Below, in pieces: positions 8,019 to 51,549 of a DNA stretch of 64,000 bases (position 1 is its first letter; every line of letters begins with the position of its first letter). The stretch covers positions 124,001 through 188,000 of the forward strand of contig MKTC01000040.1 of the NCBI GenBank assembly GCA_001897535.1, read 5' to 3'. A program made the translations under genes and the position numbers. This DNA is from Bacteroidetes bacterium 37-13. Its GTDB lineage: Bacteria; Bacteroidota; Bacteroidia; Chitinophagales; LD1. The notes beneath the pieces were generated by a model. It saw only the letters and a program-made list of their open reading frames with translations. It made no database searches and was not told where the DNA came from.

Positions 8019-9448
8019 TGTATAAGAGAATCATAAGTTATATAATTGTTGTGTCAATGCTGGTTTCGGTTGGCGGCTGCAAACTTTTTAAAGAGCCGAT
8101 AAAAACTGAAAACAAAAGCGTGCCAGAGGGTTTTAATACTTCTTCGCAAGACACCACAAACTCTGCCAAAGTGAAGTGGCGAAATTATTTTAATGATGTA
8201 AATTTAATTGCGCTCATTGATACTGCTTTAAGCAAAAACCAAGAGTTGAATATTGTGAAGCAAGAAATAGAAATTGCTCGCAGCGAAGTAAGAACCAGAA
8301 AAGGGGAGTACTTGCCATTTCTAAATATAGGCGCAGGTGTTGGTGTAGATAAGGTTGGGAAGTACACTCGCAATGGTGCAGTAGAGGAAAATCTTAATAT
8401 TCAGCCGCACACAAAATTTCCTGAGCCATTGGGCGATTTTATGGTTGGTGTAAATTTTTCGTGGGAGTTAGATGTGTGGAAGAAACTTCGCAATAGCAAA
8501 AATGCTGCTGTACAACGCTATTTGGCAAGTGTAGAAGGTAGAAACTTTATGGTAACAAAGTTGGTTGCAGAAATAGCCAATTCGTATTATGAATTGCTTG
8601 CTTTGGATAATGAATTGGAAATGATTCAAAGAAATATTGAACTTCAACAGAATGCACTCAATATTGTGAAGCAACAAAAAGAAGCGGCACAGGTTACACA
8701 ACTTGCCGTAAATCGTTTCGAAGCTCAACTGCTCAATACTCAAAATTTACAATACCAAGTAAAACAAGAAATTATTGAAACAGAGAATAAAATCAATTTT
8801 CTTACCGGTCGTTTTCCTACGCCAATTAAGCGCGATGCCGGTTCGTTTTATAGTATGGTATTTGATTCTATTTCCTCTGGCGTTCCAAGTCAGTTACTAC
8901 AAAACAGACCAGATATTCGCCAAGCAGAATATGAATTAGCTGCTTCCAAATTGGATATTAAAGTTGCAAAAGCCAATTTCTATCCATCGTTCAAAATTAC
9001 TGCTGCTGCTGGGTTTCAAGCATTTAATCCGGTTGTGTGGTTTAATCCTTGGTCTTTACTTTACAACGTTTTGGGTGATATGGTTGCTCCGCTTATCAAT
9101 AGAAATGCTTTGGTTGCTGCTTACAAAACCTCTCGCGCAAAACAAGTGCAAGCAGTTTACAATTACGAACGTTCTATTTTAAATGCTTACAATGAAGTAG
9201 TAAATCAACTTTCCGGTATTGATAATTATACCAAAAGCCATGATACAAAAGCAAAAGAAGTGGATATTCTCTCTCAATCTATTTCAATATCAAACAACCT
9301 CTTTAAATCGGCAAGAGCAGATTATATTGAAGTATTGCTTACACAGCGCGAAGCACTAAATTCCAGAATGGAACTGATAGAAATTAAAAAGAAACAATTA
9401 GCTGCCGAAATTGATATTTACAAAGCACTTGGCGGTGGTTGGAATTAG
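8018..9448 (+). CDS. TolC-family outer-membrane efflux lipoprotein
   Basis: NodT-like repeats; C-terminus ...IDIYKALGGGWN; start overlaps the RND permease stop. Confidence 0.93.
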   Translation: MYKRIISYIIVVSMLVSVGGCKLFKEPIKTENKSVPEGFNTSSQDTTNSAKVKWRNYFNDVNLIALIDTALSKNQELNIVKQEIEIARSEVRTRKGEYLPFLNIGAGVGVDKVGKYTRNGAVEENLNIQPHTKFPEPLGDFMVGVNFSWELDVWKKLRNSKNAAVQRYLASVEGRNFMVTKLVAEIANSYYELLALDNELEMIQRNIELQQNALNIVKQQKEAAQVTQLAVNRFEAQLLNTQNLQYQVKQEIIETENKINFLTGRFPTPIKRDAGSFYSMVFDSISSGVPSQLLQNRPDIRQAEYELAASKLDIKVAKANFYPSFKITAAAGFQAFNPVVWFNPWSLLYNVLGDMVAPLINRNALVAAYKTSRAKQVQAVYNYERSILNAYNEVVNQLSGIDNYTKSHDTKAKEVDILSQSISISNNLFKSARADYIEVLLTQREALNSRMELIEIKKKQLAAEIDIYKALGGGWN

Positions 9449-9472
9449 TAACTGAGTACTTTATGTTTTTTT

Positions 9473-9512
9473 AAAAGAGGCTGTTTTTTATGAAACAGCC
9501 TCTTTTTATTTT
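9473..9512 (+). terminator. Intrinsic terminator of the RND operon
   Basis: aaaagaggctgttt-ttatgaa-aaacagcctctttt followed by a T-rich tract. Confidence 0.85.
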
Positions 9513-9525
9513 ATAGGTTTTATCG

Positions 9526-9623
9526 TTATACCGATTATATATCTATAATGTTTACTTCCGTGTAAACGGAAAGCCCAATTTGATTTCATCTCGTTGGACT
9601 AAATAGCTATTATATCGGTATAA
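9526..9623. repeat. ~98-bp segment bounded by perfect 10-bp inverted repeats TTATACCGAT/ATCGGTATAA
   Basis: ttataccgat 9526-9535 and atcggtataa 9614-9623; internal ttccgtgtaaacggaa hairpin. Confidence 0.55.
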
Positions 9624-9707
9624 ACCATTCTAAAAATATTAAATATTGGACTATTTAATATTTAGAATTGGTATTAATTGTGATTGCACATCTGTGATAG
9701 TTCAATC

Positions 9708-9806
9708 TTATACCATTTTGAAATACAAATTAGTCCATTTCTAAACGGTATCCCGATTTACGGGAGTAAACAATGCCGATGTGATAGTCGTTTAGAACAA
9801 TTTTAT
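9708..9806. repeat. 99-bp repeat copy A (identical copy at 15958-16056)
   Basis: ttataccattttgaaatacaaattagtccatttctaaacggtatcccgatttacgggagtaaacaatgccgatgtgatagtcgtttagaacaattttat. Confidence 0.92.
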
Positions 9807-9966
9807 ACCATTTTTGAAATACAAATTAGTCCATTTCTAAACAGTATAATGCCGATGTGATAGTCGTTTAGAACAATTTTATTGGTTTATTACGAATATC
9901 CAATCGGTATTATTGGTCTTTCCGATTTATGCGGAAGTAAACATTACGAATATCCAATCGGTATTA
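9805..9966. repeat. Partial and degenerate additional copies of the same repeat modules
   Basis: ataccatttttgaaatacaaattagtccatttctaaac 9805-9842; aatgccgatgtgatagtcgtttagaacaattttat 9848-9882; tacgaatatccaatcggtatta twice, ending ~9912 and 9966. Confidence 0.8.
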
Positions 9967-10112
9967 GTTTCTCAAGATTGAACTATCAGTTATTACATCG
10001 GATTATAGTGTAGAAAACAGCCACACTTCCAAATTTAGTTTTGTTAATTATTTTGAAATAAAACAAAAAAGTGTTTACATTCGTTCATCCATTCACTTTA
10101 AAACTTTATTCC

Positions 10113-11713
10113 ATGAAAAAACATTCCAATTCAAAAATCTCGGGGGGGGGGGGAGCAGACTTGTAAAGACTGCTTTTTTCGCAATTAGTTTAATGCTGCT
10201 TATGCCTCCTGCATTAAAAGCACAAACGCCCGTTCTGTTAGCTCCAGACACTTCTCCGGTAGAATCAACCGTTTTATCGGAATACAGTGGCAATTTGGGA
10301 ATAGGTGTTGCCTCGCCCACCGTAAAGTTAGATGTAGATGGTGCCGGCAAATTTACAGGCACCATAGAAGCGCAAAAGCTAAAACTTACAGACGGGGTAA
10401 TAGACGGTACGGGAACACTCTATTTATCCCCTACTGGCAGCGGAAGCCTAAAAATGATAATTGGCGCCAATGCTAATGTTGCTATTGGTCAGTCAAATAC
10501 TTTTGGCAGTGGTGCAAATAATTTAATTGTGGGTACAAGTAATGTTTTGAGCAGCGCGGCAAGCCATCATTTTATTACAGGCATTTCAAATACGGTATCG
10601 GGTTTACTTGGTTTTACGCATGGTTATGGCAACAATATAAATGCAGGTGTTCTTGCGGGTTTTAATTATGCCATAGGCAAAGAAAATACAATCAATTTTA
10701 ACGAAACAATTGCATTAGACGGTTTTAATTATGCTTTGGGAATGAGCAATGAAATTACCTCCAACAGTAAATACGGTGGTAATTTTGTGTTTGGAGGCAG
10801 CAATAAAATCACTTTTACATCAAGCGAAAACTCATCGGGTTTGAATTATATATTGGGCTTATCTAACAAAATAAATGTTAATACATCAAGTGCCGACATA
10901 GATATGGGCTTAAACTATATAAACGGGGTTGCAAACTCAATTTCGGGAAATAGTACATTATGCTTTCAATCAGGCTTATTCCTCAGCTCAACCAATTCAA
11001 ATTTATCTTTTACGATGGGGCATGGAGATGTTGATAATATGCAGCCGCTTGTAAATAACCACCCCAGCAGCCTGATGGTGGGTTTTGGTATTCAGCCAAC
11101 ATTTTTTGTACAGGATAACCATGCAGGAATAAATACTACATCAACAGAAGATGCAGCATTGCGTATTAGTTCAAAAGATGGTTACGGCACAAAATTGGAT
11201 ATAAAAGCCGGAGGCACAAATGGCTGGCAAAACCAAATCAGGTTTGTGGATAGCATGAACAATTTCAGGCATTTGATAGTGGATAATTTTGAAAAAAATC
11301 ACTTGGTAATAATGCCGGGTTACTGGAATGACGGCAACCCAGTGGCAAATAATATTCTTCAGGTTGAAGGTAAAATGTTTATTGGGAATGAACAACCCAA
11401 TGGTTCCTTTGCTGATTACAAGTTAGGTATTGACGGAATGATAGTTGCCAAACGATATGTGGTGCAAGTGAATAGTTGGGCAGATAATGTTTTTGAAGAA
11501 AGCTATCCTTTGGCAACGCTAAGTGAAGTTGAAAATTTTGTAAAAGAGAATAAGCACTTGCCGGAAATACCAAGTGAAAAAGAGGTTTTGGCAAATGGGG
11601 TAAGTTTAGAGGAAATGAACCGCTTGCTACTGCAAAAAGTAGAGGAGTTAACACTTCACCTTATCAGGCATCAGAAGGAAATTGAGTTGTTGAAATCTAA
11701 TAACTGCAAATAG
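10113..11713 (+). CDS. Secreted adhesin/tail-fibre-like protein; reading frame interrupted by a poly-G tract in this assembly (intact ORF 10193-11713)
   Basis: ATG at 10113, G12 tract 10142-10153, signal peptide AFFAISLMLLMPPALKAQ in another frame; C-terminus HLPEIPSEKEVLANGVSLEEMNRLLLQKVEELTLHLI typical of Bacteroidetes tail-fibre-like proteins; head-like GxxN repeats. Confidence 0.7.
10142..10153 (+). repeat. Homopolymeric G12 tract, candidate slippage site
   Basis: ctcGGGGGGGGGGGGagcag read directly. Confidence 0.9.
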
Positions 11714-11734
11714 TTAACACTTAAAAATGGAGCT

Positions 11735-14233
11735 ATGAACAAGCATTTAAAGTTATTGGGTTATCTGTTTGCCTGCCTGTATGCGGCTTATGTTGATGCA
11801 CAATACATAACGCTTAATGGCAACAGGTTTCATGACCAAACCGGAGAGCCGTTTTATCCGGTGATATGTAATTATGGTGTAAGGTTATCGTGCCAAAACT
11901 GCAACACAGGCACTTTGATTTCTGGCTTTAGTAGCGGCAGAATAAACTGTACCCCTTCAGATTACACGCTACATCCCAATCCCTATTATGGCTCTACCCG
12001 AGAGTTTGAAGAACCGTTTAATAAAGGTTTGGAAAAAATTAGTGCAGACCTCACTAAAATAAAAGAGATGGGTTTTAACACCGTGCGTGTTATGATGGAA
12101 TTTCATGAAAACAAGCATTTTAAAATGGATAACGGCAATGTTGTGTCCGATGAACCGGGTGGCAGGGTGATATGCCTAAAGTATGACAATGCGGAGAGCG
12201 ATTACAATAGCTGGTGGGGTAACTTTTTCAGGATAATGCCGCCATATACATCCGACAGCAACCTGCACCATATTTTACTGCCTGCTATTCATAATTTTTT
12301 AGATGTTGCAAATAATGTTGGCTTGCAGGTAATTCTTGTTACCGGAGGCAGTTGCATTTCGGCTTCGGGTGATGCTTCTTACCAAAGAGACGGCTCTGTT
12401 GAAAACCTTGCACAGGCAGAGGATTATAGAGATTATATGGAAGTACTTACAGCTAATCTCAAAAACCGTACGGAATTGTTAGCTTATGATTTATATAATG
12501 AGATGTCTTATGGTATAAAAATATGGAATCCAAACGACCCTATCCCCAGTAACCGCTCATGGGGACCCAGTACAACCGATAAAAAAGAAGAAATATGTAA
12601 CTTTACCGCTATGTGGTATGATGCTATTAAAGCGGTTGACTCCAATCACCTTATTTCTATATCATCCGGAAATATATTTGGCGTGTTTGATTACGACCCC
12701 GCTATAATAAAAACGGACTTGCACGATTATCACGAATATCCTTACAATTATATACAGGGCTTTGAACTGTGGGGTAATTTCTTTACACCTGCCCAAATAC
12801 GGGAGCGTTGGCTTAGCAGGTACGAAATTATGTTTTACTGGCAAAAAAACAACAACCCCACATCTTGGATACTTAGCGAAACTGCTGCCAGTGCGTGGAC
12901 GGCACAGGGGCAGGATGTTTTCGGGCAAAGTACCAATACAAACGCTCCCGGCTACACGACCAATGCTGAATTTGTAGGCGAAAATTTCAGCCAGCCGCCA
13001 TTTTCTTATGGCTCTTACCAAGACCAACTTGATTTTGCAAGGCAAACACAGCAGATGGTGTTGAACCATTCGGGTGCAGGCTACGGGTGGTGGGAGTTTA
13101 TGTGGAATGAACGAAACGCACCTTTTAACAGTGCAAAAGAATTTTCCGAACAATTTATAGGGCTGTTAGATAGAGGCGACCCTGCCGCACAAGGCAGTGG
13201 CTATGTGTATAACAACTCGCTCGACCGCCCTGTGGTGGCAGCCTTTAATACAAACCCCATTACCAAGCCCCAGCCCGGTTCCGGCACAATGCCCGACAAT
13301 TATTACAACCCATTCGGTGGAGATTCTCAAACTAACTACACCATTACAGGAAAAATTGTTGACCAAATTGGCAATCCTATAAAAGATGCTGTGTTAATGG
13401 CAAGAAACTATTGGGATGAAGATGATTCATTTCCAAAAAAGTACAAATGTTTCCCGTTTACATTTTCTAAACCTGACGGCACTTTTCAATTGACTGCACC
13501 GATTGAACACTACTATTCATCAACATCACCTGTTATTGATTACAGCAAATTTTTGATGCTTGAATACACCGCCCCCGCAGCAAGCAAGGATAAAATTTTT
13601 GCATGGGCATTACCTGACGGAAATGGGGGCAACATAGGCAACCTGACATTGCAGCGCGGGGTAAACATATTCGATAAAAAGGTTGAGAACCTTGTTATTA
13701 ACTCCGGCAACTCGCCTATTGAAATCACCGCCCGCAACAAGCTCACGCTGCAAAATGTAACGGTGGAAAGCACAGGCATTGCCGATTTCCATGCCTCAGA
13801 CATGGTAGAATTGCTGCCGGGTTTTGAAGCAGCAGAAGGTAGTTTTGTGGATATTTACATTGCTCCGGTTGGTTTTAACTGCGATTCGCTTACTAATCTT
13901 TCTTACAAAACAGATGAAACACGCTTCTATAAAACAGATGGAGAAGAAGTAGTTACCGAAAAGAGGATTGAGGTGCGCTATATGCCGGCAGCTTCAACTA
14001 TAAAACTACTCCCCAACCCTGCAACCAATATAGTGTTTGTTGAATCTGAAACAGATGGAATCTGCACTTTGATTATTACCGACATGAACGGCAGGCAGGT
14101 TTATTCAAATACCTTTATGCTACGGGGGCGGTATGCTGTTGATGTATCTGCCTTTGCTCCGGGTAACTACCTTGTAAAAGCCATAACTCAATCACAAACT
14201 GAAATCTTTAAACTTTTTGTAAACAAAAAATAA
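11735..14233 (+). CDS. GH5-like (cellulase-type) glycoside hydrolase with T9SS type A sorting domain
   Basis: LLAYDLYNEMSYG and WILSETAAS as likely catalytic Glu motifs; carboxypeptidase-regulatory-like TGKIVDQIGNPIKDAVLMA; C-terminal IKLLPNPATNIVFVE...GNYLVKAIT...FKLFVNKK. Confidence 0.8.
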   Translation: MNKHLKLLGYLFACLYAAYVDAQYITLNGNRFHDQTGEPFYPVICNYGVRLSCQNCNTGTLISGFSSGRINCTPSDYTLHPNPYYGSTREFEEPFNKGLEKISADLTKIKEMGFNTVRVMMEFHENKHFKMDNGNVVSDEPGGRVICLKYDNAESDYNSWWGNFFRIMPPYTSDSNLHHILLPAIHNFLDVANNVGLQVILVTGGSCISASGDASYQRDGSVENLAQAEDYRDYMEVLTANLKNRTELLAYDLYNEMSYGIKIWNPNDPIPSNRSWGPSTTDKKEEICNFTAMWYDAIKAVDSNHLISISSGNIFGVFDYDPAIIKTDLHDYHEYPYNYIQGFELWGNFFTPAQIRERWLSRYEIMFYWQKNNNPTSWILSETAASAWTAQGQDVFGQSTNTNAPGYTTNAEFVGENFSQPPFSYGSYQDQLDFARQTQQMVLNHSGAGYGWWEFMWNERNAPFNSAKEFSEQFIGLLDRGDPAAQGSGYVYNNSLDRPVVAAFNTNPITKPQPGSGTMPDNYYNPFGGDSQTNYTITGKIVDQIGNPIKDAVLMARNYWDEDDSFPKKYKCFPFTFSKPDGTFQLTAPIEHYYSSTSPVIDYSKFLMLEYTAPAASKDKIFAWALPDGNGGNIGNLTLQRGVNIFDKKVENLVINSGNSPIEITARNKLTLQNVTVESTGIADFHASDMVELLPGFEAAEGSFVDIYIAPVGFNCDSLTNLSYKTDETRFYKTDGEEVVTEKRIEVRYMPAASTIKLLPNPATNIVFVESETDGICTLIITDMNGRQVYSNTFMLRGRYAVDVSAFAPGNYLVKAITQSQTEIFKLFVNKK

Positions 14234-14240
14234 TGAACTT

Positions 14241-15905
14241 ATGAAAACAATTAATCAAACATGCCTGATTTTGCTATTGCTGTTTATGGCTGTTTCTGCT
14301 TATGCTCAAAAATGGCAGTGGGCACATAGTGGAGGGAATTCTGAATTTGTTCCACCTGATGCAGGTTATAAAGTAGTTGCTGGTGAAAACGACACTATTT
14401 TCACTCATGGTGCGTTTTACAATAAATTAAAATTAGATGTAAATTATAGTATTCCAAGTGCCAGATTTATAGCTAAGTACACTCCTAATGGAACACCGAT
14501 ATCATCTTCGCTGATTATGAAAGCAACTGCTTATGCAGGATTAACAACACCACTATTCTGTACTTCGGATAAGAAAAATTTTTACTTGAGTGGAGAAATT
14601 TCTGATAGTTACTATTTTGATACCATATTAGCGAAGGGAGTAGGTGGAGGTTATATTGCCAAATTTGACGAAAATACCCGTTGCAAGTGGATAAAAGCAG
14701 GAATATCTAATAATATTCAATCAATGGCTTTTGATAATAGAGGCAATATGTATATCACAGGTTCAATCGAAAACAGCATAGCAATGATAGATACATTTAG
14801 GATGTATAATAATTCAATAACTATTGGGGGTGGTTCCAGTCCTTGGGCATATATGGCTAAGTTAGATTCCAACGGTAAATGTATTTGGGTAAAGCAAAGC
14901 TATGGACGTATGGGATTTGGACGCACTGCGATGGTCAATAACAATTTGTATGGTATAGTCAGCATAGACAGTTGCGTAATCTTTGGCAGCGAAACCTATT
15001 GCCCTACTGGCTCTTTCCTGATGCAATTGGATACATCAGGGAAGGCGAAGTGGTTTAGTCCTTTGAAACAATTAAGCGGGGGTAGTGTCTATAGCGGAAT
15101 AGGAGTTGATAAAATCGGAAACTGCTATGTAGCAGGTAATTTTGATGGCAACATTGGTTTATTGAAAGATACCATATATAAGAGTGGAAAGGGAACGTTA
15201 GAAGTATTTTTAATAAAATATAAGCCAGACGGCTCAGTTGCATGGCATCGCCAAATATATAGCGATAGCATAGTTGGTATTAGGGGCATTCACACCAATG
15301 ATGCAGGATATACATATATAGTGGGAATATTCTCAGGCACTGCTGTTTTTGGTAATGATGTGATTAGAGCAAAACCAGGTACTGATACTGTGAAAACAGC
15401 AGCGAGAAATATGTTTATAGCCCGTTATGATGCCGATGGCAATTATTTGGGTGTAAAAACAGTTTACAATGCCATAGCCAATAATATCACTACGGATGAT
15501 TCAGGCAGCGCAATTGTTACAGGCAGTATTCACTTAGGCACAACCCATTTTGATGATATAGAGCGCACATCCAACGGAGGTGATGATTACTTTGTTGCCA
15601 AGCTGAGCGCCATTACAGGCAATAATAATACCATAAAAGAGGCAACGCTTAATGATAAACTGCTAATATATACTAACCCAAACAGCGGCACATTTACCAT
15701 TGAGGTACCTGCAAGCATAGCAGCCAACACAACCGCTCATTTGCAGATATACAATACGGCAGGCAGCCTCATCAAAAGCGAAACCGTGTATATCAGCAAT
15801 TCAACTATTGGCGTGGATATAGGAACCGTACAAAAAGGGCTTTATACCGTTACCATCACGGGCAGCGATGCAAAGAAATTTACAGGCAAAGTGATGGTGG
15901 AGTAG
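14241..15905 (+). CDS. Secreted SBBP/beta-propeller-like protein with T9SS type A sorting domain
   Basis: Repeats such as GNMYITGSI, GNCYVAGNFDG, GYTYIVGIFSG; C-terminal LLIYTNPNSGTFTIEVP...GLYTVTITGSDAKKFTGKVMVE. Confidence 0.78.
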   Translation: MKTINQTCLILLLLFMAVSAYAQKWQWAHSGGNSEFVPPDAGYKVVAGENDTIFTHGAFYNKLKLDVNYSIPSARFIAKYTPNGTPISSSLIMKATAYAGLTTPLFCTSDKKNFYLSGEISDSYYFDTILAKGVGGGYIAKFDENTRCKWIKAGISNNIQSMAFDNRGNMYITGSIENSIAMIDTFRMYNNSITIGGGSSPWAYMAKLDSNGKCIWVKQSYGRMGFGRTAMVNNNLYGIVSIDSCVIFGSETYCPTGSFLMQLDTSGKAKWFSPLKQLSGGSVYSGIGVDKIGNCYVAGNFDGNIGLLKDTIYKSGKGTLEVFLIKYKPDGSVAWHRQIYSDSIVGIRGIHTNDAGYTYIVGIFSGTAVFGNDVIRAKPGTDTVKTAARNMFIARYDADGNYLGVKTVYNAIANNITTDDSGSAIVTGSIHLGTTHFDDIERTSNGGDDYFVAKLSAITGNNNTIKEATLNDKLLIYTNPNSGTFTIEVPASIAANTTAHLQIYNTAGSLIKSETVYISNSTIGVDIGTVQKGLYTVTITGSDAKKFTGKVMVE

Positions 15906-15957
15906 CAGAGAAATTGTTTATGCTGCCTTGCAGTTGCGAGATTGGAACACAGACAAA

Positions 15958-16056
15958 TTATACCATTTTGAAATACAAATTAGTCCATTTCTAAACGGTA
16001 TCCCGATTTACGGGAGTAAACAATGCCGATGTGATAGTCGTTTAGAACAATTTTAT
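15958..16056. repeat. 99-bp repeat copy B (identical to 9708-9806)
   Basis: Base-by-base identity read from the sequence; followed to 16109 by a diverged copy of 9910-9966. Confidence 0.92.
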
Positions 16057-16198
16057 TGGTCTTTTCGATTTATGCGGAAGTAAACATTACGAGTATCCAA
16101 TTGGTATTAAAGACGTTGATGTTGCTTGATAAAACAGAAGAACAAAATGGCTATTAGCACTATTTTGAACTTTTGAGTGTCCTCTTGATGAAGTCGGG

Positions 16199-16256
16199 AG
16201 AAACAATTAGCTGCCGAAATTGATATTTACAAAGCACTTGGCGGTGGTTGGAACTA
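16199..16256 (+). pseudogene. Duplicated 3' end of the TolC-like gene (fragment)
   Basis: 16199-16253 identical to 9390-9444; encodes ...KQLAAEIDIYKALGGGWN then TAA, with no upstream coding portion. Confidence 0.9.
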
Positions 16257-16277
16257 AAATCTGAGAACGAAAAAATG

Positions 16278-51164: not shown

Positions 51165-51184
51165 TTCAGGATTACCAAAAAAAA

Positions 51185-51549
51185 GTTGCACACCTATAAG
51201 CCGGATTCTGTTTTTGCCAAAGCAAACCTCTACCATTTATCTGCAGTTGCGCTCGCGCGAAACCTTTAGCACTCAACCCCCTTGCATCGAGCGAGTAGCC
51301 CTCAAGCGCAAGTGTACATGAGCTTTCAACCCGTGAGGTTTACCCTTCTACCAATTTACATTGGCAGAACGTGCGCTCTTACCGCACATTTTCACCTTTT
51401 CCTTGCGGCAAAAAATTGCTGCCAGGTAGTTATTTTCTGTGGCACTCTCTTTTTTGCTATTGCAAAAACCACCCGTTAGGTGGCACGGTACTCTTTGTTG
51501 TCCGGACTTTCCTCACCAAGTAAATTGGAGCGGCAGAGCGGTGTGCAAC
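51185..51549 (-). ncRNA. rnpB: RNase P RNA
   Basis: Reverse complement carries GAGGAAAGTCCGGACAAC near the 5' end and ACAGAATCCGGCTTATAGG near the 3' end; P1 arms gttgcacacc/ggtgtgcaac. Confidence 0.95.

Follow-up and report, generated by a model that had tools for sequence, protein, structure and literature searches.

The window, the whole 64-kb stretch of DNA that was analyzed, contains on its plus strand a homopolymer of 12 guanines (G12, 10142–10153) between an ATG start codon (10113–10115), followed by AAAAAA, and a predicted signal peptide. Read directly, the frame that begins at this ATG encodes MKKHSNSKISGGGGADL and stops at TAA 10164–10166, giving the short product of the 12-G tract (10113–10166). 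The signal peptide SRLVKTAFFAISLMLLMPPALKAQ (10154–10225), recognized by inspection and a hydropathy of 2.55, lies in another frame and opens an intact ORF of 519 codons plus stop (10154–11713) for a probable surface protein. This second frame is open from ~9968 to the stop at 11713. By frame arithmetic, 12 Gs fail to join ATG 10113 to the signal peptide, while 10 or 13 would succeed. The initial annotation had described this arrangement, including both stop and tract lengths, and, reading back to ~10073, had found no ATG before 10193 in the signal-peptide frame; these readings were borne out, and GTG and TTG proved equally absent back to ~9968.

The tract is exceptional in its surroundings. 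All other G or C runs in the window are at most 5 nt long, and G12 is the sole G run of at least 9 nt in the 3.12-Mb genome (a 43-contig draft), which otherwise holds a single G8 plus four runs of G7. In shuffles of the window that preserve dinucleotide composition, G8 occurred at a mean of 0.26, and five overlapping hits were never reached. Under a first-order Markov model, ~0.01 runs of at least 12 nt are expected genome-wide, against the observed G12, while runs of at least 7 nt are far fewer than predicted (6 observed versus ~45 expected).

Downstream on the same strand, and in the same cluster, lie genes for a protein with a C-terminal T9SS sorting domain (11735–14233; PF18962/TIGR04183) and for a T9SS-sorted, beta-propeller-like protein (14241–15905; PF18962). 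Together with a scan using the neighboring RND pump, whose relatives were mostly Bacteroidota of mixed orders, the T9SS sorting domains place the genome in Bacteroidota. The cluster of three genes (10113–15905) is bracketed by duplications. A 99-nt intergenic repeat at 9708–9806 (plus strand) is identical to 15958–16056, the 3′ end of an upstream TolC-like gene (9390–9459, plus strand) recurs as a 70-nt copy at 16199–16268 (93%), and the flanks, spanning window positions 9390–16268, share a further 57-nt direct repeat (95%). Because of these duplicated flanks and the lack of a protein match in either same-genus genome, the cluster looks like an inserted module. The region also carries, at 9804–9912, one of ~30 genomic copies of a dispersed intergenic repeat of ~55–110 nt, whose window copies had no match in Rfam. 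A 15-nt perfect inverted repeat with arms 264 nt apart raised the possibility of an invertible promoter, but the region is made up of intergenic repeats that are scattered through the genome. Elsewhere, the window encodes an ordinary bacterial class A RNase P RNA (51181–51549, minus strand).

Paralogs and protein relatives

The start codon could be assigned from copies in the same genome. A paralog on contig C31 (6602–8293, minus strand) has a full-length open frame of 564 codons and shares with the window copy the 5′ untranslated region CATCCATTCACTTTAAAACTTT (10065–10112, plus strand, in the window), the ATG, the leader and the signal peptide, at 82% DNA identity over 119 nt; its signal peptide SRPAKTTILAISLMALMFGAKAQ is homologous to that in the window. 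The ATG of the window copy aligns with those of two paralogs, in both of which the 5′ untranslated region is conserved. The C31 paralog has an interrupted tract (GGGGGAGGGGG) that keeps it in frame; upstream of the tract, it is 2 nt longer than the window copy. The 5′ untranslated region, start and leader shared with this in-frame paralog identify ATG 10113 as the genuine start codon and show that the window copy is off-frame, which supports the earlier proposal that the gene is OFF as assembled. That a full-length paralog does without an uninterrupted tract was counted against phase variation. The C-terminal regions of the two proteins are 59% identical, and their C-terminal 168 codons show a dN of 0.32 with saturated dS, a sign of purifying selection that indicates that selection kept the protein.

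The third copy, on contig C10, has the only G8 of the genome at the corresponding position. It is out of frame and breaks off no more than ~70 codons from the tract. Fragments of the family occur as well. Two 61-codon ORFs in this genome (C20:1543–1725 and C31:3159–3341) comprise only the C-terminal coiled-coil end (HLPEIPSEKEVQESGVSLGEMNRLL); they adjoin unrelated genes and are apparent 3′ remnants of recombination. Conversely, leader-only remnants of tract-bearing genes were seen in two different families, at locus L204 (genome G236, contig C159) and at C10:169600–169870 of this genome, which suggests that the 5′ leader of such genes behaves as one unit that is either copied or left over.

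The window protein comprises an N-terminal IGTTxPxxKLDV motif, a C-terminal domain and a coiled coil, the latter two at approximately residues 415–516. This layout is common to a group of Bacteroidota surface proteins with the IGTTxPxxKLDV motif, which have no curated family match and most of which lack the leader tract. Three loci outside the order (L264, L271 and L272) encode the same motif. The C-terminal domain of L271 is 35% identical to that of the window protein over 103 residues (E = 3e-19), and this distant homolog has a G11 tract inside its signal peptide, in frame (ON). Relatives are present in 14 of 30 genomes of the family. A scan of the genome_contigs collection with the window protein found no relatives, and neither of two same-genus genomes matched it; the switch is thus not conserved in these two genomes, a second point counted against phase variation. 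The term ‘adhesin-like’ used in the initial annotation could not be established: the protein had no match in Pfam, PHROG, NCBIfam or the PDB, and a structure predicted without an alignment was of low confidence (pLDDT 37) and discarded.

Tract length, base and phase across genomes

Homologs in other genera carry tracts at the same place that differ in length, base and phase. In genus g121, these are G9, G10 or G11, and a remnant consisting of the leader alone has an interrupted tract. The tracts of genus g107 are G8, G9, G10, G11 or C10, except that the C tract of one homolog is interrupted and at least one homolog lacks a tract altogether. Frame offsets of 0, 1 and 2 are all represented. Thus, the variation in tract length between copies that characterizes contingency loci is seen in homologous systems of other genera (G8–G11 and C10, in all phases). 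It extends to a single genome, in which two loci with near-identical leaders have G9 in the OFF state (L198) and G10 in the ON state (L200). The amino acids encoded by the tract are not what is conserved, because C tracts encode prolines and G tracts glycines.

We searched 399 genomes of the order for the layout itself. The pattern ATGAAA-N6-36-G10 occurred in 20 genomes, compared to 5 for a reversed-pattern control, and its C10 counterpart in 36, compared to 9. Among the 39 distinct survey sites read, 16 had an ORF of at least 100 codons with a strongly hydrophobic start after the tract, versus 2 among 56 orientations of long tracts of a generic kind (Fisher p = 5e-6); neither of these two control hits resembles a signal peptide. 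The tract-bearing genes are mutually unrelated and include lipoprotein-like genes (L082, L083, L226, L227, L241 and L244), a peptidase-like gene (L094) and one whose secreted product is large (L098). The G pattern is sparser beyond the order, where 3 of 18 sites in a survey of the class satisfied the same ORF and hydrophobicity rule.

Several hits located at contig ends, such as G51 in genome G041 and G16 in G310, were taken as artefacts or as not interpretable. Contigs often end within ~200 nt of a leader tract (L196, L197, L207 and contigs C62 and C63 of G229); many genes of this kind may therefore be missing from short-read assemblies. In relatives, poly-G tracts were also observed in mid-gene positions, where they split secreted-protein genes (L007, L015 and L030) into halves in different frames.

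A candidate slippage switch

We consider it probable that G12 is a slipped-strand phase-variation (contingency) element controlling an exported protein. In this model, slipped-strand mispairing during replication would add Gs to the tract or remove them. Whenever the tract length n equals 1 modulo 3, ATG 10113 would be joined to the signal peptide and a full-length exported protein produced (ON); the other two length classes, including the assembled 12, would miss the signal peptide (OFF), and with 12 Gs the reading frame is only 17 codons long. A protein re-initiated at ATG 10193 would be devoid of a working signal peptide. The locus has features expected of contingency loci. Its G12 is a homopolymer long enough to slip, situated in the leader of an ORF, and a unit change would switch the frame of an otherwise intact gene, as judged from the open signal-peptide frame to 11713 and the in-frame paralog. 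The initial description as a candidate phase-variable gene is further supported by the recurrence of the start–tract–signal peptide layout across the order and by the differing tract lengths and phases of homologs. G12 would be expected to slip frequently in this organism, and the product, given a signal peptide predicted by inspection and hydropathy, is presumably displayed on the surface.

Three other explanations were weighed. A sequencing or assembly error in tract length, with the true tract fixed in frame and the gene simply ON, is unlikely, although 12-base homopolymers are error-prone and the genome is a draft. Genes that are normally in frame should mostly assemble in the ON state; in a pooled list of 33 genes, hand-assembled from the loci read and with members of the same family not fully independent, only 9 are ON, which is far from mostly in frame and close to the one-third of free slippage (p = 0.58 versus 1/3) and speaks against the idea that genes mostly in frame were misassembled. 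Moreover, even if 12 were wrong, G10 or G13 in the leader of a coding sequence would remain unstable. Very unlikely, too, is a one-way frameshift that has turned the gene into a recent pseudogene with a downstream ORF not yet decayed. The off-frame state of the assembled gene and the out-of-frame tract of the truncated C10 paralog would fit such decay, but the ORF runs for 519 codons without a stop, a single family holds both ON and OFF members and the same layout recurs, enriched, in unrelated exported proteins. A frameshift programmed at the G tract, or slippage of transcription there, would yield a fixed share of full-length product from unchanged DNA; this was raised because early survey cases looked almost all OFF, but it is highly improbable. 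RNA polymerase or the ribosome can slip on long homopolymers, but a programmed event would be expected to use a conserved slippery site with a single frame offset, whereas homologs, on G as well as C tracts, were then found in all three phases.

Beyond the window, slipped-strand switching seems, on balance, a likely explanation for the order as a whole: a poly-G or poly-C tract separating the start codon from the signal peptide would act as a general random ON/OFF module for lipoproteins, secreted enzymes and surface fibers, forming a slippage-based phasome that is sparser in other orders of the class. This order-wide recurrence of the module outweighs the single window gene in value. If the interpretation is correct, many exported proteins of Bacteroidota annotated as frameshifted or start-less are switchable genes. 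As for selective agents, our guess would be phages, grazers and surfaces.

Relation to known systems

The closest known kind of system is the poly-G/C contingency loci of Neisseria, Campylobacter and Helicobacter, in which homopolymers of ~8–14 bases in the 5′ part of the coding region switch mostly surface products ON and OFF by frameshifting. The 5′ coding homopolymer, a random mix of phases and, as proposed here, ON/OFF frameshifting of surface products are common to both, whereas the present system belongs to Bacteroidota, has its tract separating the start codon from the signal peptide of exported proteins and includes just one long tract in this genome. Tract-slippage phase variation has been studied mostly in host-adapted pathogens. 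Within the same phylum, the proposed phase variation of surface genes would be shared with the invertible promoters (invertons) of Bacteroides, where a recombinase inverts DNA at inverted repeats; here, by contrast, the switch would operate by tract slippage within the coding region. If true, this would add a slippage phasome to a phylum noted for inversion-based switching.

While the slippage mechanism is known, searches of the open literature turned up no account of its widespread use in Bacteroidota, and the open-licence papers covered contained no report of homopolymer phase variation in the phylum. A 2025 review mentions Bacteroides for inversion-based switching (PMC11868660), and a GeneTack study counted frameshifted genes in 22 Bacteroidetes genomes, with such a system not singled out in the parts consulted (PMC3711429). 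Orsi et al. (2010) described poly(A) and poly(T) tracts enriched at the 5′ ends of genes, in a main text that mentions neither Bacteroidetes nor signal peptides (PMC2831843). Those tracts, exemplified by the A7 of Listeria inlA, resemble the one in the window in their extreme 5′ position and in the tiny truncated product that results when out of frame, but differ from it in base, since the tracts reported here are runs of G and C in low-GC genomes.
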